Source: Bacilli bacterium (GTDB lineage Bacteria; Bacillota_I; Bacilli_A; RFN20; CAG-826). Taken from it: DNA of 63,655 nucleotides. The stretch covers positions 1 to 63,655 of the forward strand of contig JALCDB010000009.1 in NCBI GenBank assembly GCA_022641095.1, given 5' to 3'. Below are positions 1 through 15,104 of this stretch, piece after piece; positions within the stretch are counted from its first letter, which is position 1, and each line of letters opens with the position of its first letter. The notes beneath the pieces were generated by a model. It saw only the letters and a program-made list of their open reading frames with translations, did no database searches and had not been told where the DNA came from. The translations under genes were made by a program, and so were the position numbers.

Positions 1-686
1 CAAACGGCGACGAAGGGCAGAGGGACGGCGATGAAGGTCATCAACCACACCTTCGGCTTGAAAGAGAACGTCATCCATACCAGCATGCCGGAGAGCGACG
101 CGCACAGAAGCACGACCAAAACGCACAAAGCCCCCGACCGCCTAACGGTATCGGAGTTCTTCGCCTTTATGGTTATCCCTTTTTCTTTCAGATAGGCCCT
201 ATAAGCGCGCCCGAACGCTTCGTAATTGTCCATGAAGCAGCCGCAGATCGCGCATATCCTTCTATCGTTGGATCTTTTTCTGACAACCAGCTCGCACGAC
301 GCCCGGTAGGAGCTTTCCTCCACCGTGACGTCGACGAAACGATACTCCCTCTTAACCCTCAACGAGTTCCTGAAGACGAAGCCGTCGGGTTTGATGACGA
401 TTTCCCAGTTGAAGTAAAACAGAACAAACGAAACACCGAAAAGCGTGAAAAAAGCAAAAATAATCGCACAAGGAAACTGATCGAACTGGAAGAAGACGAT
501 CCAAATCTGAAACGCAAGAAACTCCATAATAAGCACAACGCCCAGCCAAAGCCAAATACGCGACTGGCGAAGCACGTTGGTTCCGTTTAACGGCTTGAAA
601 CGGACATACCTTCGGAATAGCCACCAAAAAAGCGAGGAGACAAGAACGGTGGTTGGAACGACCAAAAAGGAAGATATGTTTTTCAT
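1..686 (-). CDS. Membrane protein with internal soluble domain, 3' end off the window (partial)
   Basis: The reading frame is open from an ATG at 686 to the left edge, about 228 codons, with no stop seen. The protein starts with a hydrophobic segment ending in WW near residue 20, has two further membrane segments at about residues 42-62 and 70-88, a soluble stretch of about 85 residues (starting EIVIKPDGF, containing a CAICGC pair of cysteines), and then two more hydrophobic segments at the truncated end. The soluble part between membrane helices has the beta-rich look of small PH-like membrane proteins, but I do not recognise the family. It lies directly downstream of the giant Rhs gene, behind a terminator, and appears to have its own -10 box. 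By position it could be an immunity or accessory protein of the Rhs system. That is inference only. Confidence 0.7.
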   Translation of the reverse strand, partial: MKNISSFLVVPTTVLVSSLFWWLFRRYVRFKPLNGTNVLRQSRIWLWLGVVLIMEFLAFQIWIVFFQFDQFPCAIIFAFFTLFGVSFVLFYFNWEIVIKPDGFVFRNSLRVKREYRFVDVTVEESSYRASCELVVRKRSNDRRICAICGCFMDNYEAFGRAYRAYLKEKGITIKAKNSDTVRRSGALCVLVVLLCASLSGMLVWMTFSFKPKVWLMTFIAVPLPFVAV

Positions 687-694
687 TTTGTTTT

Positions 695-700
695 ATTGTA
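695..700 (-). promoter_or_regulatory. -10 box (TACAAT, extended TG) for the partial membrane gene
   Basis: On the minus strand TACAAT is preceded by TGA, an extended -10, and ends eight bases before the ATG at 686. There is no Shine-Dalgarno sequence in the short gap, so the transcript would be leaderless or nearly so. The -35 position overlaps the T-tract of the Rhs terminator and is poor. Confidence 0.4.
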
Positions 701-715
701 TCACTGCTGTTTTCG

Positions 716-753
716 AAAAAAGGAACGTCCTGCCAAAATGGAAAGGACGTTCC
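716..753 (-). terminator. Intrinsic terminator after the Rhs gene
   Basis: A perfect 9-bp stem (GGAACGTCC at 722-730 with GGACGTTCC at 745-753) is followed, on the minus strand, by a run of six T. It lies about 50 bases past the Rhs stop and separates it from the downstream membrane gene. Confidence 0.85.
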
Positions 754-805
754 ATATCGCATTCAAAGCAAAAGATAGTTACTAATGTAAAAATTTGCGT
801 CTACC

Positions 806-3800
806 TTATATATCTCCCCATACGGAAGCCTTAATAGTTAGCCCCGCCCCACTCAACAGGCAATTAACAATAAAGTTTGGCCCGGCATCATGCAAAATGC
901 TTTTCAGCAAACTGATTACTGTTTTATGTAGTTTATTCGTAAAGATTTTGGTAAGGCCTTTTACCCAACTTCCGTTTCCCTCCGAAATTCCTTCAATAGT
1001 GGACTTACACGATTTCGCCAAACCACAAAGGGATTCTTGGCCTTTTGAATAACTGAATGCGCCAAAAGCACAGCCAAGGCCTAAGTTCAAAGCCGCACCT
1101 GCCAAATCGAAAGGTCTATCAGCCACCCAGTCAGAAGCGGCGCTTGAAACGAAACCGATGATCCCGTTTCCAATAATCATGGCGCCCATTCCTAAACCTG
1201 CAGAACCTAGAGCCCCTCCTACCGCTCCAAAAAGAGTATCAGTGGCTACTTGCCAACCATCAATTTTCCCGCTTGATGCGAGTTGACTAATTGCCGAAAC
1301 GACCCCATTTGACGCAGCACCTAATGCCGCACCAGTTAGAATTACTGTAGCGAGTCCTGGTGCTACAACAATCATTGCACTTACAGCGATAGCGCAGGCG
1401 AGCCCGATAAGAACCACTTTTGCGAACTTGCACCAATCCCAGCTTCCGTCAGGATCGTAACCTTCAATCGGGCTGTCGCCGCAATAAGAATAAAGGTTTA
1501 TTTTGGTAAGTGAGTTCTGATCTATCTTCGCCATACCATCGGCGTTGATAAACCTACGCAAGGTCGGATCGTAGTATCGCGACTTCAGATAGTAGAATCC
1601 CGTTTCCTCATCATAGAAATACCCTTTGTACAGAAACGGGTTGAACTCGGCGACGTCGCATGAGACAAGAATCGTCTTTTGTGGAACGCCCCAAGCGTCG
1701 TATTTGTACTTCACGACATAATTGCCGGTTTTGTCAATAAGACCGAGGATCCTGCCTTCGATATCCTTGACATAGAAGTATTCGTTTTCACCTGAGGTAA
1801 CCCCCAAAACCAATCCGTTAGGGTCATACGTAAAGTCCAACCGAACGGCCTTGCTTGGGGTTCTCTCGGTCATGGAAACGACATTCGTCCCCTCCAAAAC
1901 AAACGAGCATGTGTTAGACCCAGATGATTTAAGAACGCGAATCCCGTTTTCGTCGTAAGAATAATGAATACCGTCACCAACGCTCACGAGTCTTCTCGCA
2001 GACCAGCAAAGGTTCCTTTCAACGCCCTTGATGGTCATCGAGGTCGGATTTCCTTTATAATTGCCATCGTAGGAGAATCTTCTCAAAACGGCATCAGAAG
2101 ACGAGTCAACGACACGCAACAGCCGGTCCTTGACGACGCTGTCGTATTCATACCTGAGGCTTTGGGCGATCTCGCTTCCGATCTTCTTGACGGATGAAAG
2201 GATATTCCCGTTAAGGTCATAGGAATAAGAGGTCGATCCTCCGTCTCCGTCACTATCCTCGGTAAGCCTGCCAAGTTGGTCATAGGAGAATTCGCGTCTA
2301 GCCCCTTTTTCATCGGTGATGGAGACAGGGTTGCTTTCGGCATCGTAAGCATAGGCGAACGTCTCGTTGCCTAGAATCGTCTCTTTGGCGACCCTTAGTT
2401 TGTCGTAATCGTACTTCGTCTCGAATTCTTTTCCGAAAGCGGAGATCTTTTTTCCGGAAACCCTTCCGAGCGAGTCGATAATATCGCGGTTTATGATGGG
2501 TGCGCCTTCCGAGACGATCAAATCCGTCTTCGTTTTCGCGAGCTTCTCCTTAGCAAAGGCAAGCATCTCGACCGTTCCGTTTAGATAATCGGTCGCCCCT
2601 TTCTTGGAAACGCCAACGTATGTTCTGGCTCCCGTCAAATCGATTGTGAAGGCGAAGAAGCGCTCATTGCCGTCGATCCCGATGGATAATCCCGTGGAAT
2701 CATAAGCTATAACCAAAGTATGCCAAACGTTTGCCGGCACTTTGCCCCCAAATACGGTGTAACTGTCGCCGATTTTCATGTAGCATTGGTTGTTTATGAC
2801 GTAAACACCTAAAGCTTCATCGCCGGACTTCCAGAAAGCCAATAGGCACCTTTCTCCCAGGCCGTCACCGTCAAGTTTGAAACGAATCGTCGTTGTTCCC
2901 TGATGGCCAAGCGGCAAATCGTAGGCCAGACATTGTTTTTGCCCGGGATCGAGGTTTCTCACAGCGGAGTAGCTTCCGTATACGTGACGGCCGGTCTCCT
3001 TATCAAACTTGAAAATTCGGGCTTTTTCGACTTTGCAGTTAGGGGCGGTCGCGATGATTTCAGAAGGCCTGATTCCATCCGCTGATTCCAAACTCCCGTT
3101 TAGCGATATGACGTCAAATCCGCTATAAATCGACTGACTATAGTAAATGACGCCTTTGGAACGTTGCACCGGTTTTTCAGAAACCAAGTATCTTTTCCCT
3201 TCGCTATAGATAACTGCGTTCTTTTCGTCGGTGAAGTCTTTTATCCCTCCCGAGATCATCGCGATTTCAAAAGGCATTTTCAGAACGTTAATGTCCTGGA
3301 ACGCCCCACTGTCTGAGCTGGATGAGGAAGCGCGAATGTATTGACGCGAAACTATAATCCGATTGATGTCAAAAACGCTCTCATCAATTTGGCAGGTCGC
3401 CGCCTTCGCTCCGTTAACCGAAACGTAAACTTGGTTAGTGTTTCGTTCAAAACCATGCTCGATTAGAATGGCCACATAATTCCACTGCCCAAGAAGCAAC
3501 TTTCCGCTAATCAGTTTCGGGGAAGAGGATCCACTAGAGGCATAGCAAACCCTTCCCGTGGAATCGACATAGAGGTCAGACAACAAATCGCTGTTGACAT
3601 CAGTGAAGTACCTTTCGAAAGACAAGAGGTTTTCCTTGTCGCCGAATTCGCCTGATGGCTTTATCCAAAGGCCGAAACTTTTCCGCCAACGGAAGACCGT
3701 CTTCCATGAATCGAGGCGAAAAGGCGTCCCTCCCACATACCCGCTCGTTCTATTGCGGTTAAAAGTCGAGAGGTCATAGTAAATGAAATCAAAGCGGTCT

Positions 3801-6800
3801 CCGAAAGAGAAAACCGGCATAGACAAAACGGGATCCGTAACGACGCTTACGGTACTCATGACGGCTTTAGCCCCAAAATTACCGGAGCAAGACTCGCCGC
3901 CTAGCACCATTTCATCGCCGAAAGCGTTGGAAAGTCGGCTGAAATAGCCTTCTTTCGTGTATTCGTTGGCCTCGTAGTCTTGAATGAAGTCAACGGATCT
4001 CTTCTTTCCGCCGATTAGATATGCCTTCTTCTGAATACCGCCAAGATTGTCGTAAGAAAGCGAAATCTCGCCTTCCTTGCTTACTATCCTTGTCAGCTTT
4101 CCTTTCTTGTTGTAATCAAAGGATTTCGTCAAGTTATTGACGATATCAACCGATTTGGAAACCAGCCCGTTCTCGTTATATTCGAACTTAACGACGCCAC
4201 TGCCGTTCAAACTAACCGAAACGAGTTGGTCACGCTCATCGTACACAAAAGCGAAAATGTCGCCGGAATCGCCATACCGCTTACTTGTAACGAGGCCCTT
4301 GTCGATCGAACCGGCCATAAGACCATAAGTAAAAACGCTAACGGTCTCATCGTTCGCTTTGATGGAGAGAAGCCTGCCCGAATTATCATAAACGAACTTG
4401 TATTCTGTCCCGTTTTTGCTAGTGATTGTTTTAACAAGCCCACTTGCCTCTTCGTAAGCCATTGTGTTCTCGTGGATCCGCCCATCGGCCACCGATTTAA
4501 TCGAAAGCAGTTTGGACAAATCTTCGTATGAATATAAAGTCGCGATGCTTCCGCCAGCCTTAGTCTCTCTGGTGAGGCGGTTTAAGTAATCGTATGTTTT
4601 TGATATAACGTTCCCGTGCTCATCGGTCGAAGATAGAGGGTTCCCGCCGGCATCGTAAGATGTTTCGCGAACGATCGACTCGCCAGACGAACTATGCAAA
4701 GAGGTCTTTGTAACGTTCCCATCGGAGTCGTAATCAAAAGCCATTTCGTTACCGTTTAGATCTTTGACAGTCCGCAACTTACCATTGTTATACACATATC
4801 GAAAGCAGTTTCCATCCTGTGACAAGACTTCAGTCGGCATGTCGTTCTCGTATTTCATTTCGAGGCTCGACCCAGACGAATCCATCGCTTGAGTAATGTT
4901 CCCTCGTTGATCGTAATCGTAGTATTTGCCGAAAGAATCACGAGAAAGTTGGAAACAATCGAAATAGGCTTCGTTCGTTCCGTCGAATTCAACGCCGACT
5001 TCGATGGAAGTATAGGGGTAATCCGCTATGACGCTGCGAACGAGCATTTGCCAACTCGCAAGGTTTCTTTCGAAATCAAAATCGTATCGTTTGGCTTCTT
5101 GGCCATCGTAATTGAGTTTCAGATAAGCTCTGAAAACATTGCTCGTGGTGGCAAGCGACTTTGCAAAAACGCTGAAAACCAACTCCTCGCCAGCGTTGCC
5201 TGAGGCCATTATCGTTTTGAACATCTTGCGAATGAGGAAGGCTTTTCCGGCCCGGGTGATCAAATGCGGAGGAGCGGAAAATTTCATTACTTTTTCGTCA
5301 AGAGCCGGCGAGTGTTCATCTGAATTGAGAATGTAGGAAAAGCCGTCTTCCGAAAGAAGGTTATGGAAGGACCACCCCTTTGGAAGGGTTCCGTCAGCAA
5401 ACTCCAAATTGCCGTTTTCAATCAGGTTATAACGGGTTATTTCGTTCAATGACCCCAACTGGAAGTCATCAAAGCACGCCTCGCATGTGCCCGAAACCCC
5501 TATTGAAACCGAAACGGACAGTGAACAGGCATCGAATGGCAGAGAGATTTTATCTGTGGAAAAAGCCGTCCATTCGCCATCATCGGACGGAGCTGAGTAT
5601 TCCTTTTCCAACGAGTGTGGAACCAATATGGTTTTTTTACGAACCAAACCGCCAACTCCGGTCCCTGGCATATCAATGGTTTTCGTTTCGTTGTAGTTCA
5701 CGTCAACCTTGACGGAAACGGCCGCTCCAGCCTGAGAAGAAACTATTTTCAAAAAACCTTTAAGAGAATAATCGCCAAGCAGTTTAGGCGAAACGACGGA
5801 TTGAGAGATGGTCGTCGTTTGGGCTTCAGTGCCCACAACCCTAAGACACTTCCCACCATGAACACCACCATCGATGGCTTCCGCGATCCCAGGACCGCTT
5901 TTTTGCCAACCCAAGGAACCGTCTTGGAAAAGATCGTCGTTTTCAAAACTATGGTTTTCAAGATAATTTCTTGAAGTCAGTTGCGGATCGGATTGACCTT
6001 TTGCGCCTTTTGAGGCGCCGTCCTCCAGTTCGTCATAGTTAAAGGAAACCGTCTTTCCGTCATCATCCATGATCGTTCGGATACGGCCATATTTATCGAA
6101 ATAATAGTAAACTGACTTATTTTCAAAGTCTGTGACTTTCGTGAAATCGTAATGGTATGAATAGGAAGTCAGGTATTGAGGCTGATTCGATGAATTCTTG
6201 AGCGAGGCCGTGGAAATTCTTCCACGGCTGTCCTTGCTGTATTCAAGGCTGTTTCCGGAAACGGTCTCGCAAACTTTGGAAATGAAATCGCCAACGAAAG
6301 TGAATTCAATTTCTTTCAACTTCTTCGATGAGTCGGTGTCGTAAAGAGAAATCAGCATCGAAAAATCGCCAGGATACGATATTTCAATGGACTTTTTCTC
6401 TTTGGCAAACAACATCTCAGACACAAGATCGCCAGAATATCTAATGTCAATTTCGGATCCTGAGAAATTGGCTATTTTTGATGGTTTTATGACATTGGAA
6501 GTGATTGCGTTCCAGGTGAACGAAATTAAATGATTGTCTTTGTCTCTCGCGCTTTCTATCTGCGTTTTCCCACCACAAATCAAAAAACCGATTCCGTTGC
6601 CGGATTTATCATATAGTTGAATTGTGTTGCCACCATAGTTCCCGCTTGTTGAAAGATAAAAATATGAACAGTCCGTGGAAGCGTAATAAAGCGACCCACC
6701 ACCGTTTTTGTGCGTGATTCCATAATCGGAGTAACTGAATCCCTTCGCGTTGCGATCAATGAATTTGTAGAAGACTTTTTTGCCGGTGTAATCCTCCAAA

Positions 6801-7591
6801 ACATATCCTCCATTGCTTGACGTTTTTAGAGAATACTGGAAACTGGCCGCAAATCCGTGCTTGAACAAAACACTGGGAAATCGTCTATCTGGGCTTTGGC
6901 AAAGGGAAACGGAGATAGGCATTTTTGAGTCAGGCGTAGAAAAAAGATTCACTAAATTGAAAACTTTCCCAGAGTTGAGGGCGATATATCCCTTCTCGCC
7001 CTCACAAACACTGTGCTCATCGAACTTCAGCATCGGATCCAAACCGCTAAGATTCGCAATTGCCGCCGAACACATCTGAGGTGAATTGGGATCATCGGCA
7101 AGCGTTTTCGGATCAGCCAACACAAAAGAACCGGGTTCATAATCGTTCCCAATCGCAAAAACGAAGGACTGATTTCCGGCCAAATTTTCATTAACGAGTT
7201 TCGTGATGTCAAAAGTTGATGCCTTGATTGATGGCGAACCATCATCTTCGTCTCCTGGTTCGACAACCTCATCTTCTGGGGACGACGAAACACTTGAAGC
7301 GAGCGAAGAAGGCGAACTGTTGATGTTGCTATTCGAAACACTGAAGAGCCTAAATGCCGTACTGTTTTTCACGCCTTTGTAAAAAATACGGAAAGCCATA
7401 TGACCAATCTTCTCTTCAGAGGTCAGCCCAGTCATGGAGAGTTTGACCAGAAGAATACAGTTTTTGTCAACGTTTCCATAATAATTATTAGTTAGACTCG
7501 CGGAAGTCCACTGTCCATCGGATTTACGTAGTAATCTCGAAGAGACGTTTATCGTAGCGAAACCAGCCTTGTTGCTTATGAATTTAATCAT
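806..7591 (-). CDS. Giant Rhs/YD-repeat protein with hydrophobic variable C-terminus
   Basis: The protein has 2261 residues. Residues 1-210 look like a DNRLRE-type domain. YD repeats begin near 480. Two stretches near 560 and 730 begin like carbohydrate-binding modules (N-x-S/N-x-E ... GW). A large YD block spans about 890-1195, LamG/concanavalin-like domains lie near 1297-1415 and 1560-1680, and a second YD block spans 1704-2037. The Rhs-associated core closes with the RYYDPTLRRFINADG signature and a DPDG near 2050, the position at which Rhs proteins are usually auto-cleaved. The last ~210 residues are Gly/Ala-rich and strongly hydrophobic; I cannot match them to a known toxin. There is no signal peptide. 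A strong Shine-Dalgarno (AAGGAGG) fixes the start at 7591. It is the last gene of the holin operon, 13 bases after the previous gene. Confidence 0.93.
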   Translation of the reverse strand: MIKFISNKAGFATINVSSRLLRKSDGQWTSASLTNNYYGNVDKNCILLVKLSMTGLTSEEKIGHMAFRIFYKGVKNSTAFRLFSVSNSNINSSPSSLASSVSSSPEDEVVEPGDEDDGSPSIKASTFDITKLVNENLAGNQSFVFAIGNDYEPGSFVLADPKTLADDPNSPQMCSAAIANLSGLDPMLKFDEHSVCEGEKGYIALNSGKVFNLVNLFSTPDSKMPISVSLCQSPDRRFPSVLFKHGFAASFQYSLKTSSNGGYVLEDYTGKKVFYKFIDRNAKGFSYSDYGITHKNGGGSLYYASTDCSYFYLSTSGNYGGNTIQLYDKSGNGIGFLICGGKTQIESARDKDNHLISFTWNAITSNVIKPSKIANFSGSEIDIRYSGDLVSEMLFAKEKKSIEISYPGDFSMLISLYDTDSSKKLKEIEFTFVGDFISKVCETVSGNSLEYSKDSRGRISTASLKNSSNQPQYLTSYSYHYDFTKVTDFENKSVYYYFDKYGRIRTIMDDDGKTVSFNYDELEDGASKGAKGQSDPQLTSRNYLENHSFENDDLFQDGSLGWQKSGPGIAEAIDGGVHGGKCLRVVGTEAQTTTISQSVVSPKLLGDYSLKGFLKIVSSQAGAAVSVKVDVNYNETKTIDMPGTGVGGLVRKKTILVPHSLEKEYSAPSDDGEWTAFSTDKISLPFDACSLSVSVSIGVSGTCEACFDDFQLGSLNEITRYNLIENGNLEFADGTLPKGWSFHNLLSEDGFSYILNSDEHSPALDEKVMKFSAPPHLITRAGKAFLIRKMFKTIMASGNAGEELVFSVFAKSLATTSNVFRAYLKLNYDGQEAKRYDFDFERNLASWQMLVRSVIADYPYTSIEVGVEFDGTNEAYFDCFQLSRDSFGKYYDYDQRGNITQAMDSSGSSLEMKYENDMPTEVLSQDGNCFRYVYNNGKLRTVKDLNGNEMAFDYDSDGNVTKTSLHSSSGESIVRETSYDAGGNPLSSTDEHGNVISKTYDYLNRLTRETKAGGSIATLYSYEDLSKLLSIKSVADGRIHENTMAYEEASGLVKTITSKNGTEYKFVYDNSGRLLSIKANDETVSVFTYGLMAGSIDKGLVTSKRYGDSGDIFAFVYDERDQLVSVSLNGSGVVKFEYNENGLVSKSVDIVNNLTKSFDYNKKGKLTRIVSKEGEISLSYDNLGGIQKKAYLIGGKKRSVDFIQDYEANEYTKEGYFSRLSNAFGDEMVLGGESCSGNFGAKAVMSTVSVVTDPVLSMPVFSFGDRFDFIYYDLSTFNRNRTSGYVGGTPFRLDSWKTVFRWRKSFGLWIKPSGEFGDKENLLSFERYFTDVNSDLLSDLYVDSTGRVCYASSGSSSPKLISGKLLLGQWNYVAILIEHGFERNTNQVYVSVNGAKAATCQIDESVFDINRIIVSRQYIRASSSSSDSGAFQDINVLKMPFEIAMISGGIKDFTDEKNAVIYSEGKRYLVSEKPVQRSKGVIYYSQSIYSGFDVISLNGSLESADGIRPSEIIATAPNCKVEKARIFKFDKETGRHVYGSYSAVRNLDPGQKQCLAYDLPLGHQGTTTIRFKLDGDGLGERCLLAFWKSGDEALGVYVINNQCYMKIGDSYTVFGGKVPANVWHTLVIAYDSTGLSIGIDGNERFFAFTIDLTGARTYVGVSKKGATDYLNGTVEMLAFAKEKLAKTKTDLIVSEGAPIINRDIIDSLGRVSGKKISAFGKEFETKYDYDKLRVAKETILGNETFAYAYDAESNPVSITDEKGARREFSYDQLGRLTEDSDGDGGSTSYSYDLNGNILSSVKKIGSEIAQSLRYEYDSVVKDRLLRVVDSSSDAVLRRFSYDGNYKGNPTSMTIKGVERNLCWSARRLVSVGDGIHYSYDENGIRVLKSSGSNTCSFVLEGTNVVSMTERTPSKAVRLDFTYDPNGLVLGVTSGENEYFYVKDIEGRILGLIDKTGNYVVKYKYDAWGVPQKTILVSCDVAEFNPFLYKGYFYDEETGFYYLKSRYYDPTLRRFINADGMAKIDQNSLTKINLYSYCGDSPIEGYDPDGSWDWCKFAKVVLIGLACAIAVSAMIVVAPGLATVILTGAALGAASNGVVSAISQLASSGKIDGWQVATDTLFGAVGGALGSAGLGMGAMIIGNGIIGFVSSAASDWVADRPFDLAGAALNLGLGCAFGAFSYSKGQESLCGLAKSCKSTIEGISEGNGSWVKGLTKIFTNKLHKTVISLLKSILHDAGPNFIVNCLLSGAGLTIKASVWGDI

Positions 7592-7604
7592 TGTTATTTC
7601 CTCC

Positions 7605-8474
7605 TTAAATCAAAGCAATCGAATTTTCCATCTCGGATATGTCTAGATTTCTTAGCGCGTTTGTGAAGTCAATCACATCCGCCCTCGTCCCAAGAAGAGT
7701 CGAAAGAAATCCAATTAACTTGTTTTTCTTCTCCTGCCTTTCGAGCGGGATTTCTGAAGGATCGAATTGCACCAAGAAGTCAACATCGCTTTGCTTGGTG
7801 ACAACGCCTTTGGCAACGGAGCCATAAAGCAGCAGTTTTCGCACAGCGAATTTCGACTCAAGAATCGGAATCTTTGGCTTAATGGCGGATATGATGCCTG
7901 CGATGCCTTCTGGGGCGCATCTCATCGAACCGCCCTCGTCTGATGGCTCCTTCATTTGAGAAAAGAGATACATCAACTTGTTCTCTTTATTGGCATTGAC
8001 ACAATCCATGTATATTCCGTGGACAGATCCACGAGGAATCATTTGGTGCAATCCTCTTTTCAAGAGAATCATGTTCGAGACCGAAAAGGCGAACTCGATT
8101 TTTCTCGTAGGCACCTTTTTAAGCACACAAATATGAACCTTCATGGCAACGTAGTGCGGGTCTTCGTCTTTGTGGAGATAATATTCTTCGCATATGGCTT
8201 CAGCCGACTCTTTGCTAAGGGTCAACCCAGATAGCAAAAAATAGATCCGCTCAAGCAAAACCGTGTCAAAAGGCTGAAACACATTCGAGAGCGCAAAAGA
8301 GTAGGAATCGGCCAATTTTTTGGCCTCGACCTCTTCGCCGGAAAGTGCTTCAACCTCGTCGAGTGAGATCAGTTTATAACGCTCATGCGGAAGGGAGCCC
8401 CCGCAAAGTTTGGAGACAAACTCCACGAAACGATAGAACCCTTTTGTCCCAACGACGTTCTCAACGATCATCAT
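7605..8474 (-). CDS. Degenerate Fic-like domain fused to nucleotidyltransferase, copy 2
   Basis: The protein has 289 residues. The C-terminal third is a minimal nucleotidyltransferase (MNT/Pol-beta fold): GSVAKG, then SDVDFLV at about residues 217-235, and a later ADVID that would supply the third acidic position, so the active site looks intact. The N-terminal ~190 residues have the layout of a Fic domain, including a segment resembling the helix after the Fic active loop (LLKRGLHQMIP). However, the catalytic HxFx(D/E)GNGR loop is replaced by KKVPTRKIEFAF at about 117-128, so AMP transfer by the Fic part is not expected. It overlaps the preceding paralogue by 14 bases and is 13 bases from the Rhs gene, so translation is probably coupled. 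The start could be 8474 or the adjacent ATG at 8471. The Fic assignment is inferred from pattern, not a search. Confidence 0.75.
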   Translation of the reverse strand: MMIVENVVGTKGFYRFVEFVSKLCGGSLPHERYKLISLDEVEALSGEEVEAKKLADSYSFALSNVFQPFDTVLLERIYFLLSGLTLSKESAEAICEEYYLHKDEDPHYVAMKVHICVLKKVPTRKIEFAFSVSNMILLKRGLHQMIPRGSVHGIYMDCVNANKENKLMYLFSQMKEPSDEGGSMRCAPEGIAGIISAIKPKIPILESKFAVRKLLLYGSVAKGVVTKQSDVDFLVQFDPSEIPLERQEKKNKLIGFLSTLLGTRADVIDFTNALRNLDISEMENSIALI

Positions 8475-9324
8475 AAATGAGCTTCCTTTCTTTCTTTATC
8501 GCCTCAACGCTGCCAAACCAAACACCGCCATCGAGATGTATATCCGCCGGTCGATCAAAGCGTTTGCCGAAGAAAGAGGCCATTGCCTTGATGTCAGGGT
8601 TCCAATTTGGCTGCCCCCCGCCAACAAAAAGATCGACATCGCTGAACTCCGTGCCCTTGTCCTTAGCAAAAGAACCGAAAAGCCAAACTACGGCTATCCC
8701 AAACTTCTCCTTTGCTTCCTTTTTTAAAATAAGGATTGTTTTGATAATTTTTTCTTTTGAGGTTTTCCGATATCTTGCGATGTATTTTTGGGAATTGTCG
8801 CTCGTAACCGATAGCATCCGATGCATTGAATCAATGGCCGTCCCTTTCTTTGACAATTCAGCAAGAAAGAGAACATACGATCTTTGAAAAACCATTGGCA
8901 CATATCCGCCGCCTGCAAGCGTCGCGTCAAAAAGAAACACCGCCATTTCGAATGAATAATCCTTGAAGATATCGCTCGCCAAAACCTCTCGAAGAAGCCA
9001 AGTTGCAGCATAAGTTGGGTCCTTTTGGTTAACGATTGGAAATATCTTTGAGATGCAACTAATGGTTTGAGCGTCCGCTTCCAACGCAAGGCTGTTCGCG
9101 CAAGCAAGCAAGGAGGGTTCATTGATTCCTGATTGAAGAAGGATTCTATAGGTTCTGATCAATTTCTCGAATTCACGCCCTTGAGTGGTCGCTGCTGAAC
9201 CGCAACCATCAAAAATTGCTTTTAGCTCGCTATAATCTTTCCCGAATTTCGTTTCACGGCTAATGAAAAAAACGACTTGGAAATCAATTCTTGGATTGTA
9301 GTTCTCTTTGTGCTTAATAAACAT
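8461..9324 (-). CDS. Degenerate Fic-like domain fused to nucleotidyltransferase, copy 1
   Basis: The protein has 287 residues from the ATG at 9324, chosen because AAAGGAGT sits just upstream; an ATG eleven codons earlier has no ribosome site. The architecture and length match the next gene. The C-terminal nucleotidyltransferase has LFGSFAK followed by SDVDLFV at about 215-232 and an ADIHLD further on. The N-terminal part follows the Fic pattern (GGGYVPMVFQRSYVLFL resembles the Fic segment GYPPI...R..Y), but the HxFx(D/E)GNGR loop has become DIFKDYSFEMA at about 118-128. The two genes look like an old tandem duplication that kept the transferase site and lost the Fic site. MNT domains often act as antitoxins that AMPylate a partner, so a role in controlling the Rhs protein or protecting the producer is conceivable but unproven. 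Confidence 0.75.
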   Translation of the reverse strand: MFIKHKENYNPRIDFQVVFFISRETKFGKDYSELKAIFDGCGSAATTQGREFEKLIRTYRILLQSGINEPSLLACANSLALEADAQTISCISKIFPIVNQKDPTYAATWLLREVLASDIFKDYSFEMAVFLFDATLAGGGYVPMVFQRSYVLFLAELSKKGTAIDSMHRMLSVTSDNSQKYIARYRKTSKEKIIKTILILKKEAKEKFGIAVVWLFGSFAKDKGTEFSDVDLFVGGGQPNWNPDIKAMASFFGKRFDRPADIHLDGGVWFGSVEAIKKERKLIYDDR

Positions 9325-9397
9325 TTCCCTGACTCCTTTGGCAAGAACGAATCGCATTGGAAAGCGCTCTAAAATATGAAATCTTGAATTGAGTCGT

Positions 9398-9694
9398 CTA
9401 ATTTCCGTCCTTTTTCGTTTTCTTCCCGAACAGTTGCTTAATCATCTGGTTGCCACCGGTCGAACCAGCGCCGCTGATTAGACCGATTTCCAAGGCAACC
9501 CAAACGTTTGATGCTGAGGGAATCGACTCTGGCACGGTCAAAAACATCGTGACGGCAATGAGTCCGCCAAAAGCGGATGTCAAAACAGGAATGATTTTGA
9601 AGGCCTGGTCTTTCTTTTTCCGAAAAGCGGTTTTGTAGATTTCGGCAAAAATATAGCAACATATAACAATCACTGGCACTGAAGCGTATTCCAT
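9398..9694 (-). CDS. Holin (phage Hol44/holin-5-like family)
   Basis: A 98-residue protein with a short N-terminal helix, a basic turn (FRKKKDQ), a second helix near 33-53, and a third near 66-85 containing the SGAGSTGGNQMIKQLFG ending typical of this holin family, then a basic tail. Holins form membrane pores that release endolysins or, in clostridial toxin loci, large proteins without signal peptides. There is no endolysin, phage structural gene or integrase next to it. Instead it is the first gene of an operon ending in the leaderless Rhs protein, which suggests use in protein release. The start is supported by AAGGA upstream of the ATG at 9694. The stop lies about 75 bases before the next start. 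Confidence 0.85.
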   Translation of the reverse strand: MEYASVPVIVICCYIFAEIYKTAFRKKKDQAFKIIPVLTSAFGGLIAVTMFLTVPESIPSASNVWVALEIGLISGAGSTGGNQMIKQLFGKKTKKDGN

Positions 9695-9822
9695 GACTTG
9701 GTTCCTTCTTTCTGAGTCAAGCGGCTCTTTTGCTTTTGCAATTCGTTAAAATGGCGTTTCGGCTTGTCTATAAGACGTTTTGCCGAGGCTTCCAAAAGCG
9801 AAGCGATTCGTACCCCTCAAAG

Positions 9823-9861
9823 GTTTGGTGGTCGACACACGCTTTTCACAACCAAAAACGG
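9823..9861 (-). promoter_or_regulatory. Two-block promoter of the holin-Rhs operon, same motif as at the sigma gene
   Basis: On the minus strand GGTTGTGAAAA (9853-9843) is followed after exactly 13 bases by ACCAAAC (9829-9823), with CCGTTTTT just upstream. The identical pair with identical spacing precedes the sigma gene at 10561-10601. This is the form expected of -35/-10 elements read by a dedicated sigma factor. The remaining 128 bases to the holin ATG would be an untranslated leader; I see no strong structure in it. The rest of the gap up to 10010 contains no gene. Confidence 0.75.
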
Positions 9862-10010
9862 AAGTGTTTTTTCGTCTAATTGCCACAAAATAAAACAAAT
9901 GGTTTTTTCATAACCGCGCTTTTAAGAATTCTGGATCTACGCTAAATGAAGATTTAAATAAGGGGCCCGTGTTTAAAGACAAAGTCGATGATTTTTTGCA
10001 GAATCCAGTA

Positions 10011-10038
10011 TCAAAAAAGCCCTCTAAAAGAAGGCTTT
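10011..10038 (-). terminator. Terminator-like hairpin overlapping the sigma gene's stop codon
   Basis: AAAGCC/GGCTTT arms (10033-10038 and 10016-10021), plus partial inner pairing, run into a T-run on the minus strand. The T-run itself encodes the last Leu-Phe and the TGA. Termination at this site would cut the mRNA at the stop codon and insulate the sigma gene from the holin operon. Confidence 0.65.
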
Positions 10039-10541
10039 GTTTTTCTTATTTCTTTTCTCATCTTTTTCAAGGCACGGACTTTGACTTTTGATATGGCCTG
10101 CTGACTCATGCCTCGTTCTCTGGCTATTTCACTGACTTTCTTCCCATTAAAGAAGCAATCGATGATAACCGTTCTTTCATAATCGCTTAGCGACGATACA
10201 AGGTTCCAAACCTCTTCATGCCCTAAACAAGGTGTTTCTTCCGTTTCTTCTGCCGCAAAAGTTTCCTCCATGCTCTCGCCGTCCTCTCCGCCCGTCTCAA
10301 TAGATAACGTTTCTTTAAGACGAATTTTGGCTGAAAGTCCATTGCATTTTGTGCTTAGCACCTTTTCTACGTATGCGGTTTTGTTTATTTTTGCCTTTGC
10401 GATTATCGAATAAAAGTTTTTAACCAAGAAAGAGAGTAAATCATCTATGACTTCAGATCTAATGTCGCGCCCTATTCTTTTGCTAATCGTCTTTGTGATA
10501 TAAAAATAGCACTCTTCAAACGAGACATCATCACCGTTCAT
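10011..10541 (-). CDS. Sigma-70 family sigma factor, small (TcdR/ECF-like layout)
   Basis: A 176-residue protein. The C-terminal part is a clear sigma region 4: LSDYERTVIIDCFF near 118-131, followed by the helix-turn-helix SEIARERGMSQQAISKVKVRALKKM. The N-terminal ~75 residues are helical and would be region 2, but are divergent. Residues ~85-110 form an acidic linker. The size fits ECF or group-5 (TcdR/UviA type) sigma factors. The gene heads the Rhs island and carries the same promoter motif as the holin operon, so it probably activates both. It has GGAGGG before the ATG. Its last codons lie inside a terminator-like hairpin. Confidence 0.85.
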   Translation of the reverse strand: MNGDDVSFEECYFYITKTISKRIGRDIRSEVIDDLLSFLVKNFYSIIAKAKINKTAYVEKVLSTKCNGLSAKIRLKETLSIETGGEDGESMEETFAAEETEETPCLGHEEVWNLVSSLSDYERTVIIDCFFNGKKVSEIARERGMSQQAISKVKVRALKKMRKEIRKTKPSFRGLF

Positions 10542-10560
10542 TGCTCGGCCCCCTCCACCC

Positions 10561-10601
10561 GTTTGGTACTTGAAAACCCTTTTTCACAACCAGAAAAACG
10601 G
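10561..10601 (-). promoter_or_regulatory. Two-block promoter of the sigma gene (probable autoregulation)
   Basis: On the minus strand CCGTTTTT, then GGTTGTGAAAA (10591-10581), 13 bases, then ACCAAAC (10567-10561). The downstream block ends 19 bases before the sigma ATG, giving a leader of roughly a dozen bases that still contains GGAGGG. Blocks and spacing match the holin operon promoter exactly, while the 13-base spacers differ in sequence. Confidence 0.75.
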
Positions 10602-10735
10602 TGTCATTCGATTCAACAACAACGTAAATGTCTTTGATCACGTGTGTCTGGATGCCAAACAAAACAACCACCCTATCAGAAGAAGACTTTTTTCATTCTT
10701 TTTATGTCCTGAGAAATAATGAGATGAGGAGTGCC

Positions 10736-10764
10736 AAAAAACACAAACGCCTTAAGGGGCGTTT
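10736..10764 (-). terminator. Possible terminator in the gene-free stretch
   Basis: AAACGCC (10745-10751) pairs with GGCGTTT (10758-10764), with a six-base loop. On the minus strand the hairpin is followed by GTGTTTTT. No gene ends next to it, so it either ends the long lipoprotein transcript or an unannotated RNA. Confidence 0.5.
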
Positions 10765-10831
10765 TGACAATTAAGACATTTCATCTATTAGTTTATTTCC
10801 GCTAATTTAATTAACCATTTTGCCATAGCAT

Positions 10832-10894
10832 TTATGTTCGAAAAAACCAAGTAAATAGGACAAAACAAGGCATTATGCATTTTATCGAACATAA
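10832..10894. repeat. Perfect 10-bp inverted repeat with 43-base spacer
   Basis: TTATGTTCGA at 10832-10841 is the exact reverse complement of TCGAACATAA at 10885-10894. The spacer is AT-rich. It could be a long hairpin in an RNA or the ends of a small vanished element. Function unknown. Confidence 0.5.
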
Positions 10895-11702
10895 GTAAAA
10901 CAACATGCAAAGGACGCCAATTCGGAACGGCCGCAAAAATTGACGAATTCCTCAAAAGCGGTTTTTCATTTAATTCTCTCTATTTGCAATATTTGCGTTT
11001 TTAAATAAACGCGAAAAACAATTTCCAGGCAATAAACCATAACAAGCAAAACGCAAACAGGAACTCAACAACCGAAATCGAAAAACAACAATATTGATGC
11101 TTTGAATTGGTTTTGTAAGTGGTTTGCATTCCACGGAACCGAATAAACTCAATCGCGTTTTGAATCGGTTGTTGATACCTTGAAGCAACGCTTGTTTGCT
11201 ATCGATGGCTGATAAAAAAGCATTCGCATTGATTGTTTCCTTTCGCGAATAAAGTCCTCTCATCGCAAACTTATGTTCTTAAAAATAGAATTATCCTTAT
11301 GTTTTTGAAATTATGCTTTCCAAAACGCGTATAAATCTCGGCTGCCAAGATTCGTGAGTGACCAATGTGTACATGAACAATCTGAAAATAAGTCTCTTTG
11401 TCAAAAGGCCAAGTAACAAAAATATGGCGAATCCAATAAGACGTCACTGATTTTTCTTTAAAACAGATTTCGTTTTTGAACTTTTCATAAAGCTTTTCTA
11501 TAGCCCAAGCCGTTAAGGGGGAAATTATGTCGATTTAAAAGCAAAATCCGGAAGAAACCCCGAAAACGCAACCGTATTTCAAGAACCGCAAGGAATTTGT
11601 CAGCAAAAGCATCATGGGCCAAGAGCCACGGCGCGGTCATTGAAATTTAAACGCTTTTAAAAACAAGCAAGGGCGCCATCACATATAAAATCAAGAAACC
11701 GA

Positions 11703-13628
11703 TTAGGCGGCGTTTCCGATAAACTGCGTTATGATATCGCCCGTAATAGAGTCCTTGTTCGCGACGAAGACATCGATGAGAGTGTTGTAATCCGCTCTGA
11801 TTTTCGTAAGGTACGATGACGATAAAGTCACCGAAGAGTTTATTCCGCTCACGGACTTCATGTCGCTGCTGAAATCGCTGTAATTGGTGTCTTTGTCGTT
11901 GTCGTCTTGGATGAACATCATCGGAATGTCCGTCTCGTATTCGCAAAGGTCCTCGTCTTGATAGCCATACCAGTACTGCTTACGGAGTTCGATGTCGTAT
12001 TTGCGGCTTGTTTTTATGCCTAATTTCGTGTTGTAGGCCGGAGTGAAGACGGACGATGATCCGTTTACGTAAACGTCGTTCGGGTTGAAACTCGAGTCGG
12101 TCCCGTCGCCGCTGCTAGCCAAAACTTTCGTTGAGGCGATCCCGGAAATGTCGTTGAGGTTGAACCAAAGGGTGTTGTACGTCAGCGTCGTCACGCTCTT
12201 GATCATTTCGCGAATTTTGTATCCGCGAAGCTTCCCATCGCTCACGGAGTAAAGCTCATTGATGTAGCCGGAGAAGCCGATGATGCCAGAGGCTTTGTTG
12301 CCGACGACGCTTGCGTAAGCATCGCCGATATAGAAATCGGCGCAACTGGGCACAAGGTCTTTGCCTTTCAGCTGAACGAACTCGTATATGTGGCCGTCGA
12401 CTTCTCCGGTCTCGGAATCGCGGGTCACGGAGAACGTGGCCTTTCGACTTCCGGCCTCGACGCCGTACTCAAGCGCGAATTCGTAAGAGTTGTCGCCAAT
12501 AACGTATTTCAAAGCGTTCGTGTCGGTAAGATTGATGCGCACGCTTTTCTCGTTTTTGGCAACGTCGAAGACCATGTCGATCTGCGGCTTGACCTCCCCG
12601 AAGAAGGGAAGGTTCCAGCCAGTCGTCATCGTAAGCGTGTAAGAGAGAACGCCGTCAGCGAAACGAAGCGAAGCCGAGTAGTTCTTGTCGCTGTCGGCAA
12701 TCGAATGGTCGGCCGTGTCGCTCACGTTTGAATCAAGATAATTGTTGAAGACGGCGACGCTGGCGGTCGTGGCGGTTTCGCATAAGCCCAGAACCGCATA
12801 GAACCTCTCCGACTGGATGATGTTATGGATGACCATGTTCCACTGCTCGCCATAGCCTCCGTAATGAATGGAAGAGACGCCGACGAACGATGAGAAGTCA
12901 TAAGTCACGTCGGCTTCGGACACGATCTTTGAGGAATTGGTCGGCCTCATGGAATCGGGAATGTAACTGAATGGGTCTTGGCCCAAAGCGCCGACAAGAG
13001 TCGAAAGGTAGGCTTTAATATCCACCTTTTCGTTATAGGCGGCGTAAAAAGTGGCGTTGCCAAGAATCGTGTACGGCCACGACACGGTTTCCGTCAACTC
13101 GGCATCCTCGGCCCATCCGATGAAACGATATCCGTCTTTGAGCGGGTCATCGGGCTTTTCGATTTGGCTCCCGTAATCGGCCTTGATCGGAGAGACCTCG
13201 CTGCCGCCGTTGGTAAGGAAGGTTATCGTATATTGCTGTTTCGTTTCCTCGATGACGGCATAATAACTGGCATCGCCCGAAACGGCCGGAAGAGACGGCA
13301 GAACGTCGCCATTGAGGGAAGCGGACCACCCCAAAAAGGTATAGTCCCATTCCTGTGTGTCCGCTTTGGAATAAGCATAAGCGGGGACTTCTCCTTCTTC
13401 GTAAGATTCCTTCGTCAGCAAAACGCCCGCTTCGTCGTAAAAAGAAATCTGATAACTCGTCACGACGGATGAGAAAGAATCGCTCCCTTGCTCGCTTTCG
13501 GATTCGCTGAGGGGAGTCGCCGAATTGGACCCGCCCCCATCGCTACTCGCCACCGGGAGAGTCGTTCCGCCGCATGATGTCAACGCCAACGCCGCCCCCA
13601 TACAACCAAATAGAATAGCTTTTTTCAT
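11703..13628 (-). CDS. Lipoprotein with InlB-type repeats, function unknown
   Basis: The protein has 641 residues from the ATG at 13628, chosen because AAAGGAAAGG precedes it and because it begins a lipoprotein signal (MKK, hydrophobic stretch, LTSC lipobox, Cys-19). An in-frame upstream start would bury the signal. After a Ser/Gly-rich linker, two Listeria-Bacteroides-type repeats follow: about residues 58-130 and 130-198, the second ending RFIGWAEDAEL...ATFYAAYNE. The remaining ~440 residues are beta-rich and not recognised. It would be anchored on the outer face of the membrane. It lies 63 bases downstream of a membrane-anchored XRE regulator in the same direction and is probably co-transcribed with it. 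Confidence 0.8.
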   Translation of the reverse strand: MKKAILFGCMGAALALTSCGGTTLPVASSDGGGSNSATPLSESESEQGSDSFSSVVTSYQISFYDEAGVLLTKESYEEGEVPAYAYSKADTQEWDYTFLGWSASLNGDVLPSLPAVSGDASYYAVIEETKQQYTITFLTNGGSEVSPIKADYGSQIEKPDDPLKDGYRFIGWAEDAELTETVSWPYTILGNATFYAAYNEKVDIKAYLSTLVGALGQDPFSYIPDSMRPTNSSKIVSEADVTYDFSSFVGVSSIHYGGYGEQWNMVIHNIIQSERFYAVLGLCETATTASVAVFNNYLDSNVSDTADHSIADSDKNYSASLRFADGVLSYTLTMTTGWNLPFFGEVKPQIDMVFDVAKNEKSVRINLTDTNALKYVIGDNSYEFALEYGVEAGSRKATFSVTRDSETGEVDGHIYEFVQLKGKDLVPSCADFYIGDAYASVVGNKASGIIGFSGYINELYSVSDGKLRGYKIREMIKSVTTLTYNTLWFNLNDISGIASTKVLASSGDGTDSSFNPNDVYVNGSSSVFTPAYNTKLGIKTSRKYDIELRKQYWYGYQDEDLCEYETDIPMMFIQDDNDKDTNYSDFSSDMKSVSGINSSVTLSSSYLTKIRADYNTLIDVFVANKDSITGDIITQFIGNAA

Positions 13629-13691
13629 CTTCGCCTTTCCTTTCTGCCGTTTTGATTCGGCCAAAATCCTGATTGTGACGTCGTCCATATC

Positions 13692-14612
13692 TCAAGCCTC
13701 CCTTGGCTTCCCGTGCCTTGCCACTGCGTAAAATGGGAAGGAGAACATCGCGAGGACGCCGCCAACCGCGACAGCCAAAGACAAGGCAAAGAGGGCAAAG
13801 AGGGCCCCTAATATCCAAAAGAGGATTTTCATGATGATCAGAAACGCGACCCCATCAAGATCAAAGCTGAAGATAATACCCGGAAACTTCACGAAACCGA
13901 TTTGGATGATCTCCAAAAAAACGTCCTGAATATAGGTCGGCTCAATAAGGCAATAGACAAGCGAGAAAAACAAATACCCCACTGCGACGGAGGAGGCAAC
14001 GAAAATCCACATCATCCCAACATCGCTGTCCTTATAGAGGAACGCGCCCGTCAAAATCGTTATGAGGATAGCAGCCACGCATGAAGCGATGCCCCATCCA
14101 AAGGCGACCGGATTGTGGATTGCCGGCTTTTTCTCCGTCGGTTTTCCTTTAAGAACGTCGCTGTCTTTCTTTTCGGCGGGCTCGTCGGCGCCGTTTGGGG
14201 AAAGGGCGACCCGGTGGCGATCCTCGCCATCGTTATGAGGCTCGTCCCCATCGGGTGTCTCGACACGCTCATGATCGTCTTCGCTAAGGGGGGTGCCACA
14301 ACTTCCCTCACGCCCGCAAACGCCGTCCACGACCGTTACGGACGATTCCTTTTGGCTTGGCTTTTCTAAGATTTCAACAGGCTCGGAAGGGAGCGGCGGT
14401 TCAGGCGGCAAAGTCAAATCCTTGGAAACCAACTCATCGATGCTGACGTGGAAGGTTTCGGACAAAGAACGAAGGATGTCGAGTCCAGGCTCAACTTGCC
14501 CGTTCTCGTAGCGGCTGACCGCTTGCGGAGTCAAATGAAGGATATCCGCAAGGTCTTTTTGCGTCATTTTCCCTTTAGTCCGCAAATATGAAATGTTTTT
14601 GCCAACGCTCAT
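13692..14612 (-). CDS. XRE-family regulator with C-terminal membrane segments
   Basis: The protein has 306 residues from the ATG at 14612, which follows GCAGGAGAAAAA. Residues 1-65 are a Cro/CI-type helix-turn-helix (NISYLRTKGKMTQKDLADIL, then TPQAVSRYENGQ). Residues ~70-165 are a low-complexity charged linker. The C-terminal ~130 residues contain four hydrophobic segments, so DNA binding is tethered to the membrane. Such one-component regulators may sense an envelope signal. A long inverted repeat lies just upstream, a natural site for self-control. The downstream neighbour is the lipoprotein gene. Confidence 0.85.
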   Translation of the reverse strand: MSVGKNISYLRTKGKMTQKDLADILHLTPQAVSRYENGQVEPGLDILRSLSETFHVSIDELVSKDLTLPPEPPLPSEPVEILEKPSQKESSVTVVDGVCGREGSCGTPLSEDDHERVETPDGDEPHNDGEDRHRVALSPNGADEPAEKKDSDVLKGKPTEKKPAIHNPVAFGWGIASCVAAILITILTGAFLYKDSDVGMMWIFVASSVAVGYLFFSLVYCLIEPTYIQDVFLEIIQIGFVKFPGIIFSFDLDGVAFLIIMKILFWILGALFALFALSLAVAVGGVLAMFSFPFYAVARHGKPREA

Positions 14613-14641
14613 TTTTTCTCCTGCTTCCAATTCTCTTCCAC

Positions 14642-14680
14642 GAGCGAACAAAGAGAAAACAACTCTTTGTTAACTCGCTC
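14642..14680. promoter_or_regulatory. Long interrupted inverted repeat upstream of the XRE gene
   Basis: AACAAAGAG (14647-14655) pairs with CTCTTTGTT (14663-14671) around a seven-base loop. An outer GAGCG/CGCTC pair (14642-14646 and 14676-14680) extends it across a four-base bulge. It sits about 30 bases before the XRE start codon and may be the operator or a leader hairpin. The rest of the gap to 15104 is AT-rich with no gene seen. Confidence 0.5.
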
Positions 14681-15104
14681 AACAAAACGTTGAATTGAAG
14701 CCCCCTCTCAGTTTTTTCCGCCAAATAAAACGGCTTTTTCTCTACGCAATTGATTAAAAACCGCAAAAAACGAAGTATCAACATATTCTTTAAAAAACAT
14801 CCATTTTTTATAGTGATATGAGAGAACGCTTTAACGGTTTTGCAAATTCCGTGGAATTCGTTTTTCGGAAAAGCGGAACCCAAAAGGCGGCAAAACGTTT
14901 TTCTGCACCCGTCGTCTCCGCCAAAACAACGAAGGCTTTCGCTTATCCTTCCCTTTCTCCTAAACCCATGTCTGCCGCTGATATGACACATTCACTTTGC
15001 CGTTTCCGCTATCAATCAAAAACGTCGTCGCCCCCCGTTTCAAATGTTTATCAACTCAAATGGGCAGGAATGGCGAAAGAGCGGCAGGTAAACCGCCCAA
15101 CGAT

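Follow-up and report, generated by a model that had tools for sequence, protein, structure and literature searches.

In Clostridioides difficile, the sigma factor TcdR activates itself. In the excerpts available of PMC9527704, large clostridial toxin loci and Bcn5 loci carry a sigma factor together with a holin and an endolysin or endolysin fragment, and those of PMC10847048 describe a lysis cassette that is transcriptionally coupled to a Tc toxin and releases it. The route by which Rhs-type toxins exit Gram-positive or wall-less cells without Type VI secretion is poorly understood, and bacterial teneurin-like proteins are said, in an excerpt of PMC13018210, to have no obvious delivery machinery. 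Here we analyze a 63,655-nucleotide stretch of DNA from a Bacilli bacterium of the lineage RFN20; CAG-826 (contig JALCDB010000009.1 of assembly GCA_022641095.1), hereafter the window, which is the whole of contig C9 of the host genome G000 (1.59 Mb; 88.8% complete). One end of it carries a gene set that is probably a sigma-switched, holin-based release module for a giant Rhs toxin. This sigma-holin-Rhs release logic was first proposed in a first-pass annotation of the sequence, and the genomic evidence supports it.

Read from right to left on the minus strand, the gene order is sigma-like gene, holin, two nucleotidyltransferase (NTase) fusions and Rhs:

10011..10541, minus strand: small sigma-70-like regulator of 176 residues (PF04545 at 36.4 bits, cut-off 24.1; region 4 clear, region 2 uncertain)
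9398..9694, minus strand: holin of the Hol44 family, 98 residues (PF16079 at 41.2 bits, gathering cut-off 29.2; phrog_1129 holin, E 4.8e-10)
8461..9357, minus strand: pseudo-Fic/MNT nucleotidyltransferase A, 298 residues (PF01909, E 1.7e-8; AlphaFold mean predicted local distance difference test (pLDDT) 79.1)
7605..8474, minus strand: pseudo-Fic/MNT nucleotidyltransferase B, 289 residues (PF01909, E 1.4e-11; AlphaFold mean pLDDT 83.7)
806..7591, minus strand: Rhs/YD-repeat protein of 2261 residues with a hydrophobic C-terminal tip (PF05593, E 6.1e-39, 132.1 bits, cut-off 22; TIGR03696 at 61.4 bits, cut-off 32.5)

All five open reading frames (ORFs) that had been annotated as same-strand genes were confirmed on the minus strand. 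The AT-richer island described with them was also recovered, with a G+C content of 0.453 over 806-10541 versus 0.542 over 12001-63655, where single kilobases range from 0.479 to 0.623. The holin had been described as having no phage genes or endolysin nearby; this holds for the module itself, which contains no endolysin domain, and no phage gene was recognized in the next two genes (11703-14651), where the profile scan stopped. An XhlA-like gene present in relatives is missing here, as no ORF of more than 50 residues lies wholly inside 9695-10010. The window contains no tRNA, and positions 1-15000 gave no Rfam match, so no attachment site is suggested.

The module is real and recurrent. At the order level, a two-holin profile (E <= 1e-4) matched 12 of 279 genomes at 13 places, two of them in the host (C9 and C10). 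Rhs or Rhs pieces are present at nine of these places (the window, L062, L035, L034, L058, L059, L060, L061 and L063), and the other four comprise a hydrolase locus (L057), two loci that look prophage-like by inspection (L064, L065) and a place in G119 outside the examined set. The order sigma, XhlA-like gene, holin, NTase(s) and Rhs is kept in three families (L035, L058, L060, L061), and the window holin is 56% identical to that of L035 in genome G005. Starting from the NTase led to three loci (L031, L032, L033) in which NTase and Rhs occur but a holin of this family does not. The second module of the host genome, on contig C10, is cut by the contig start inside Rhs (L062:1-2868); the remainder may lie on contig C6 of the same genome, which starts with a long Rhs frame.

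A scan of genome contigs from 84,980 species with a nine-sequence holin alignment yielded 45 confirmed loci, which were classed by local profiles with Rhs called at phmmer E <= 1e-5. Rhs lies downstream on the same strand in 25 of the 45, and 14 have no Rhs (L081, L088, L095-L097, L099, L102-L108, L110), with tail or recombinase genes in some of the part of these 14 that was examined. Thus, holin homologues are not consistently found apart from Rhs. Three further loci are cut by contig ends (L079, L086, L091), two have an alpha/beta-hydrolase in place of Rhs (L069, L076; L068 has both), and one has an Rhs piece upstream, with an NTase and a short following ORF downstream (L077). The 45 loci are not independent, because eight repeat order-level loci (L067, L069, L074, L077, L078, L082, L090 and L101 are L035, L057, L061, L059, L060, L058, L034 and L063, respectively) and three genomes contribute two loci each (L073/L084, L087/L089, L068/L091). 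Classed as module-type were 31 of the 45.

A tree of the holins gave a similar picture. After removal of L110, which was too short, 59 of 60 holins remained, and on these rows the Rhs-module label changes 4 times versus 19.6 times when shuffled, with none of 500 shuffles as low. Module holins fill 30 of the 33 rows in one half of the tree, and phage or other holins 24 of the 26 in the other; as exceptions, the phage half includes L090 and L092, and the module half includes L081, L088 and L113, a contig called viral. Support for the main split is weak (72/82), the columns are few and the bootstrap was unsettled. A chance neighbourhood was rejected on the recurrent holin-Rhs linkage across loci and the clustering on this tree.

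We also considered whether the holin might be a phage gene. A prophage lysis cassette was dismissed as its setting, given that the best-matching genome loci are Rhs-linked and that matches in the phage collection are 29-35% identical. Holin relatives in general, lying mostly beside Rhs and, when Rhs-linked, clustering apart on the tree, are not consistently part of such cassettes, in keeping with the first-pass annotation. A search of viral contigs with the window holin alone or NTase B alone confirmed no relative, and alignments of the holin and of XhlA gave 14 and 20 loci, of which the neighbourhoods of L113, L125, L126 and L127 were inspected. L113 and L125 are module-like and lie on contigs called viral. 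The label says little for L113, because its sigma, holin and 1419-residue Rhs genes are the same as those of L101; L125 (443-7756) resembles another module, with an XhlA-like gene (66% identical), a holin, an 1826-residue protein and a small regulator-like gene. On the prophage-like contigs L126 (6096-7095) and L127 (7319-8318), an NTase-like gene lies directly 5' of an XhlA-like gene, alongside tail-type genes; the NTase-like gene of L127 matches a PHROG nucleotidyltransferase weakly (E 0.0057). Such contigs are a possible source of module parts. That the regulator, XhlA and holin are themselves left-over phage lysis genes lying by chance beside Rhs would fit both these prophage-like combinations and the matches of holin and XhlA to phage families, but we consider it very improbable: the co-occurrence of holin and Rhs is repeated across families with reading frames intact, and the shared upstream elements described below are private to the module.

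A switch that acts on the whole module is suggested by DNA shared between the two putative transcripts:

10561..10591, minus strand: promoter-like element, copy 1, upstream of the sigma gene (GGTTGTGAAAA-N13-ACCAAAC, exact)
9823..9853, minus strand: promoter-like element, copy 2, upstream of the holin-NTase-NTase-Rhs operon (GGTTGTGAAAA-N13-ACCAAAC, exact)
10016..10038, minus strand: hairpin and T-run at the 3' end of the sigma gene, a candidate terminator between the two transcripts (-12 kcal/mol, z -2.86, 1 of 200 shuffles as stable); it is missing from a pattern-scan terminator list

The two-box element was first noticed by reading the sequence, and the pattern was then written from both sites. 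The host genome contains two exact copies, both at the module, and the next best site has three mismatches. Both sites were known before the pattern was drawn up, and the number of 0.04 expected in shuffles of the window should be read with this in mind. Compared over their full length, the stretch upstream of the sigma gene and the one upstream of the holin operon beat 200 of 200 shuffles in similarity. A test for a common 36-base stretch between the two upstream regions was run on 22 loci (two of them, L062 and L078, near-copies) with 200 shuffles each, and it was significant in four: the window, L067, L076 and L098, with 0, 1, 0 and 0 shuffles as good. In L067, in genome G005, another element occupies the corresponding two positions, and L098 has a third motif at its two sites, neither with a further copy in its genome; searches of these genomes and of G000 with site-derived patterns show only the absence of further copies. 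If a sigma factor and its promoters co-evolved, lineages would be expected to differ in motif while keeping both positions, as they do here. Together, the shared upstream elements point to co-regulation at the window and at three other loci, and they give the self-switch of the first-pass annotation support in the sequence.

The nature of the regulator is less clear. The TIGR02937 model aligns to residues 14-164 of the sigma-like protein below its cut-off (E 1.6e-9, 37.6 bits versus 42.9), as does SigBFG (E 3.8e-10). Membership in Group 5, which includes TcdR, BotR and UviA, was not found with the BotR model TIGR03209 (18.2 bits versus 138.35), the one Group 5 model present among the matches listed. 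Against phages there were six matches (E 0.08 to 6e-3), and PADLOC returned weak or candidate models only, for this protein and for both NTases. Among the 31 module-type loci, an XhlA-like profile matches in 21 and the sigma profile in 15; in about half, therefore, the regulator is of another kind or unrecognized.

We propose the following sequence of events. The small sigma factor would activate its own promoter and that of the holin-NTase-NTase-Rhs operon through the module-private element, as the shared DNA suggests. In a switched-on cell, the Rhs toxin, lacking a signal, would be made in the cytoplasm alongside the holin; to judge from its family, the holin would open the membrane. The two NTases would probably act on the toxin or on a target of the cell itself; a modification such as the nucleotide addition carried out by MntA would keep the toxin harmless or mature it before release; the downstream membrane protein would be a likely immunity factor. 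The penicillin-binding protein (PBP) transpeptidase domain (PF00905) and FtsW/RodA (PF01098) were not found in G000, G259, G112 and G198 (88.8, 79, 77 and 94% complete), and the host probably lacks a peptidoglycan wall. As neither PBP nor FtsW/RodA was found in the host, the holin alone could suffice for lysis, with the Rhs protein released on neighbours. Lytic release is more likely than non-lytic release in this host.

Several observations weigh against this proposal. The first concerns the regulator: of the small sigma factor that had been annotated, region 4 stands above its cut-off, whereas region 2 has no separate Pfam family match. No significant shared upstream stretch was detected in 18 of the 22 loci, including the second module of the host, and a genome-wide pattern for L076 recovered one of its two copies, because the pattern allowed no one-base length difference. 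Many Rhs genes also occur elsewhere. The Rhs core matches in 68 of 273 genomes of the order, and of 60 places with an Rhs open frame of at least 1400 residues, seven stand beside a Hol44 holin (G000:C9, G005, G112, G198, G230, G231, G259). At 48 others there is an NTase match in 7, a weak holin-profile match in 2 and a weak sigma match in 2; a small membrane protein lies near Rhs in 6, and 7 frames start too near a contig edge to judge. The last five are L031 and L033, with NTase and without Hol44 holin, and G070:C33, G000:C6 and G260:C2, outside the examined set. Most long Rhs frames therefore lie outside such modules, and our claim concerns the module and not all Rhs proteins.

The remaining points on this side concern the cell wall. 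The incompleteness of the four PBP-less genomes weakens the wall-less reading, and PBPs are present in five of the nine module host genomes checked (PF00905 and PF01098 both in G005, G231, G237 and G238; PBPs only in G230). No endolysin was recognized in the module ORF lists of these walled relatives, in which part of the genes was scanned. Ten further genes scanned in relatives included no classical endolysin family, and one of the ten, in L075, has a C92 papain-like amidase domain and lies ~4 kb upstream of the holin. Together with its absence from the window module, the missing endolysin would be consistent with non-lytic export, in which the holin, with XhlA in relatives, would serve as a regulated channel for folded Rhs while the cell survives. 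This has been argued for TcdE and TpeE, and holin-mediated non-lytic secretion is reviewed in PMC9527704, as excerpted. We regard such export as unlikely here, since an open holin should kill a wall-less cell, and a lytic mode has been reported for the Tc toxin of Yersinia entomophaga, with its RHS2/YenC subunit (PMC10847048, in excerpt).

Returning to the sigma-switched release module, its neighbours in other genomes indicate what may vary around the holin. Divergent ABC-3C genes lie upstream in four loci (L068:2159-5385, L069:4416-5850, L074:5411-8706, L083:1945-3466), with MC2 and CTD6 over the Pfam cut-off and an AAA-type gene adjoining them in each; L086 gave one partial match. They are a possible trigger of the module. 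They would also suit a module whose main use is abortive defence, with the holin killing infected cells and the release of Rhs as an added benefit. Such conflict-triggered suicide is improbable, in our estimate: the genes occur in 4 of the 31 module-type loci and were not shown in 26 (sought by similarity to L074, and by Pfam in four loci), and none was detected in the two neighbour genes scanned at the window module, whose other side is the contig end.

Other loci hold further candidates for the place of the sigma factor, the NTases or the cargo. In L073 (8070-9653) and L084 (8071-9643), a regulator-like protein of ~370 residues and a short signal-peptide-like ORF lie 5' of XhlA and holin; by inspection, the pair looks like peptide quorum sensing, with no Pfam match over cut-off in L073, the locus scanned. 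Among the 25 loci with downstream Rhs, the slot that separates it from the holin is of the NTase type in 11, of a Mur-ligase type with companions in 9 and empty in 5, and never holds both. The Mur ligase with its small companion, in the pseudo-Fic/MNT slot, is found in L084 (11330-12694; PF08245, E 3.1e-20) and, by similarity, in eight other loci. L077 (2059-9955) has a biosynthetic insert, with an AMP-binding ligase, a carrier-sized protein and a BtrH_N protein between holin and NTase. Lipase-like alpha/beta-hydrolase genes with weak Pfam matches, together with lipoprotein-like ORFs, are part of the module in L068 (6368-7606), L069 (6801-8066) and L076 (10278-11474), and these hydrolases may be an alternative cargo.

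A broader reading, for which we judge the case to be evenly balanced, is that these loci would represent one toxin-release system, modular and built on a holin, in Bacillota and Mycoplasmatota of the gut, some of them wall-less. Its fixed core would be the holin, often with XhlA. The trigger would be exchangeable (a self-activating sigma factor, an ABC-3C sensor and possibly peptide quorum sensing), as would the enzyme slot, filled by pseudo-Fic/MNT or Mur ligase, and the cargo, either Rhs or a lipase-like hydrolase. Such a system would amount to lysis-dependent secretion without an endolysin.

The two NTases had been labelled Fic-like/nucleotidyltransferase fusions, and their models agree with the label: both have a Fic fold in the N-terminal part and an MNT-type nucleotidyltransferase domain (PF01909) in the C-terminal part. 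In Foldseek searches against the PDB, the NTase B model matched a C. difficile Fic protein (4x2c, E 1.4e-4) and the MntA-HepT complex (7bxo, E 8.2e-3). Matches of the NTase A model were weaker, none reaching E 0.001 (eukaryotic Fic 4u0z, E 1.9e-3; HEPN-MNT 8xeh, E 7.9e-3). The catalytic motif of Fic proteins, HPFxxGNGR, is absent from both window proteins. A true Fic protein, with this motif and PF02661 (E 1.4e-18), is encoded upstream in L091; it matches the first NTase B profile weakly and the larger one not at all, and the homology of the NTases to Fic rests on the fold search for that reason. The nucleotidyltransferase half keeps GS and SD.D (GS...SD.D) and a third Asp unchanged across all 11 B-type and 10 A-type sequences compared, and this half is probably active in both fusions. 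The curated MntA antitoxin model NF047752 reached 35.7 and 23.2 bits versus its cut-off of 60. Phage matches of NTase B were limited to two, with 24.7% and 41.3% identity (E 0.2 and 6e-3).

In the Rhs protein, the RHS repeats and the Rhs-associated core both score above their curated cut-offs. The protein had been said to lack a signal peptide and, by a simple hydropathy test rather than a signal-peptide predictor, its N-terminus indeed has no strong hydrophobic stretch (Kyte-Doolittle 1.17 versus 1.91 for a lipoprotein of the window). A type VI secretion Rhs effector was ruled out by the lack of any PAAR (PF05488) match in the host genome, at its 88.8% completeness. Extra Rhs-matching fragments lie 3' of the main Rhs gene in L070, L071 and L098. 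Downstream of the window Rhs gene there is one further frame:

1..686, minus strand: hydrophobic, membrane-type ORF of at least 228 residues that runs off the contig start, a candidate immunity or accessory protein (DUF6560, E 7.7e-4, 20.1 bits, below the cut-off of 27.8)

By inspection, several relatives also have small membrane-type proteins 3' of Rhs, and this ORF may encode an immunity protein for the Rhs tip.

If the proposed reading is correct, Rhs toxins would have an exit route in a compact module whose private sigma switch is linked to the holin and the Rhs cargo, and the idea of holin release would extend from large clostridial and Tc toxins to the polymorphic toxins of gut bacteria. 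There would then also be a setting in which to probe what the pseudo-Fic/MNT fusion proteins do. The related gene sets in other gut bacteria suggest a dedicated release route for giant Rhs toxins. No description of a sigma-holin-Rhs module was found among the matches listed, which cover titles and abstract starts in the open-licence PMC literature, with preprints outside.

The closest described systems each share part of this arrangement. Like the window, the C. difficile pathogenicity locus (PaLoc) brings together a dedicated sigma factor, a holin and a giant signal-less toxin, but its cargo is a large clostridial toxin and an endolysin or fragment is part of the locus (PMC9527704, in excerpt), whereas the window has an Rhs cargo and no recognized endolysin. 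The window further differs in its Hol44 (PF16079) holin, in its extra pseudo-Fic/MNT proteins and in a sigma-like protein below the BotR-model cut-off, so that kinship to TcdR is unsupported. The UviA/UviB-Bcn5 system of Clostridium perfringens likewise has a sigma factor, a holin and a cargo without Sec signal, there antibacterial, but UviB is a BhlA-family holin whose locus includes an amidase endolysin (same excerpts); the window has a different holin, an Rhs cargo and no recognized endolysin. MntA antitoxins and Fic AMPylation proteins resemble the window NTases in the C-terminal MNT fold with conserved catalytic-type Asp and, by structure search, in the N-terminal Fic fold; the window NTases differ in joining both folds in one protein, in having lost the Fic motif and in lying upstream of Rhs in a proposed release operon. 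In the Type 10 secretion of Yersinia entomophaga, phage-type lysis genes are coupled to a toxin complex with an RHS-type subunit and release is lytic, through a Gram-negative holin/endolysin/spanin cassette under RoeA (PMC10847048, in excerpt). In the window, the coupling of holin and cargo is seen at the genomic level only, the cassette has a holin without endolysin or spanin, and the switch would be a sigma factor. We conclude that the module appears to be a variant of the TcdR/TcdE and Type 10 secretion logic.

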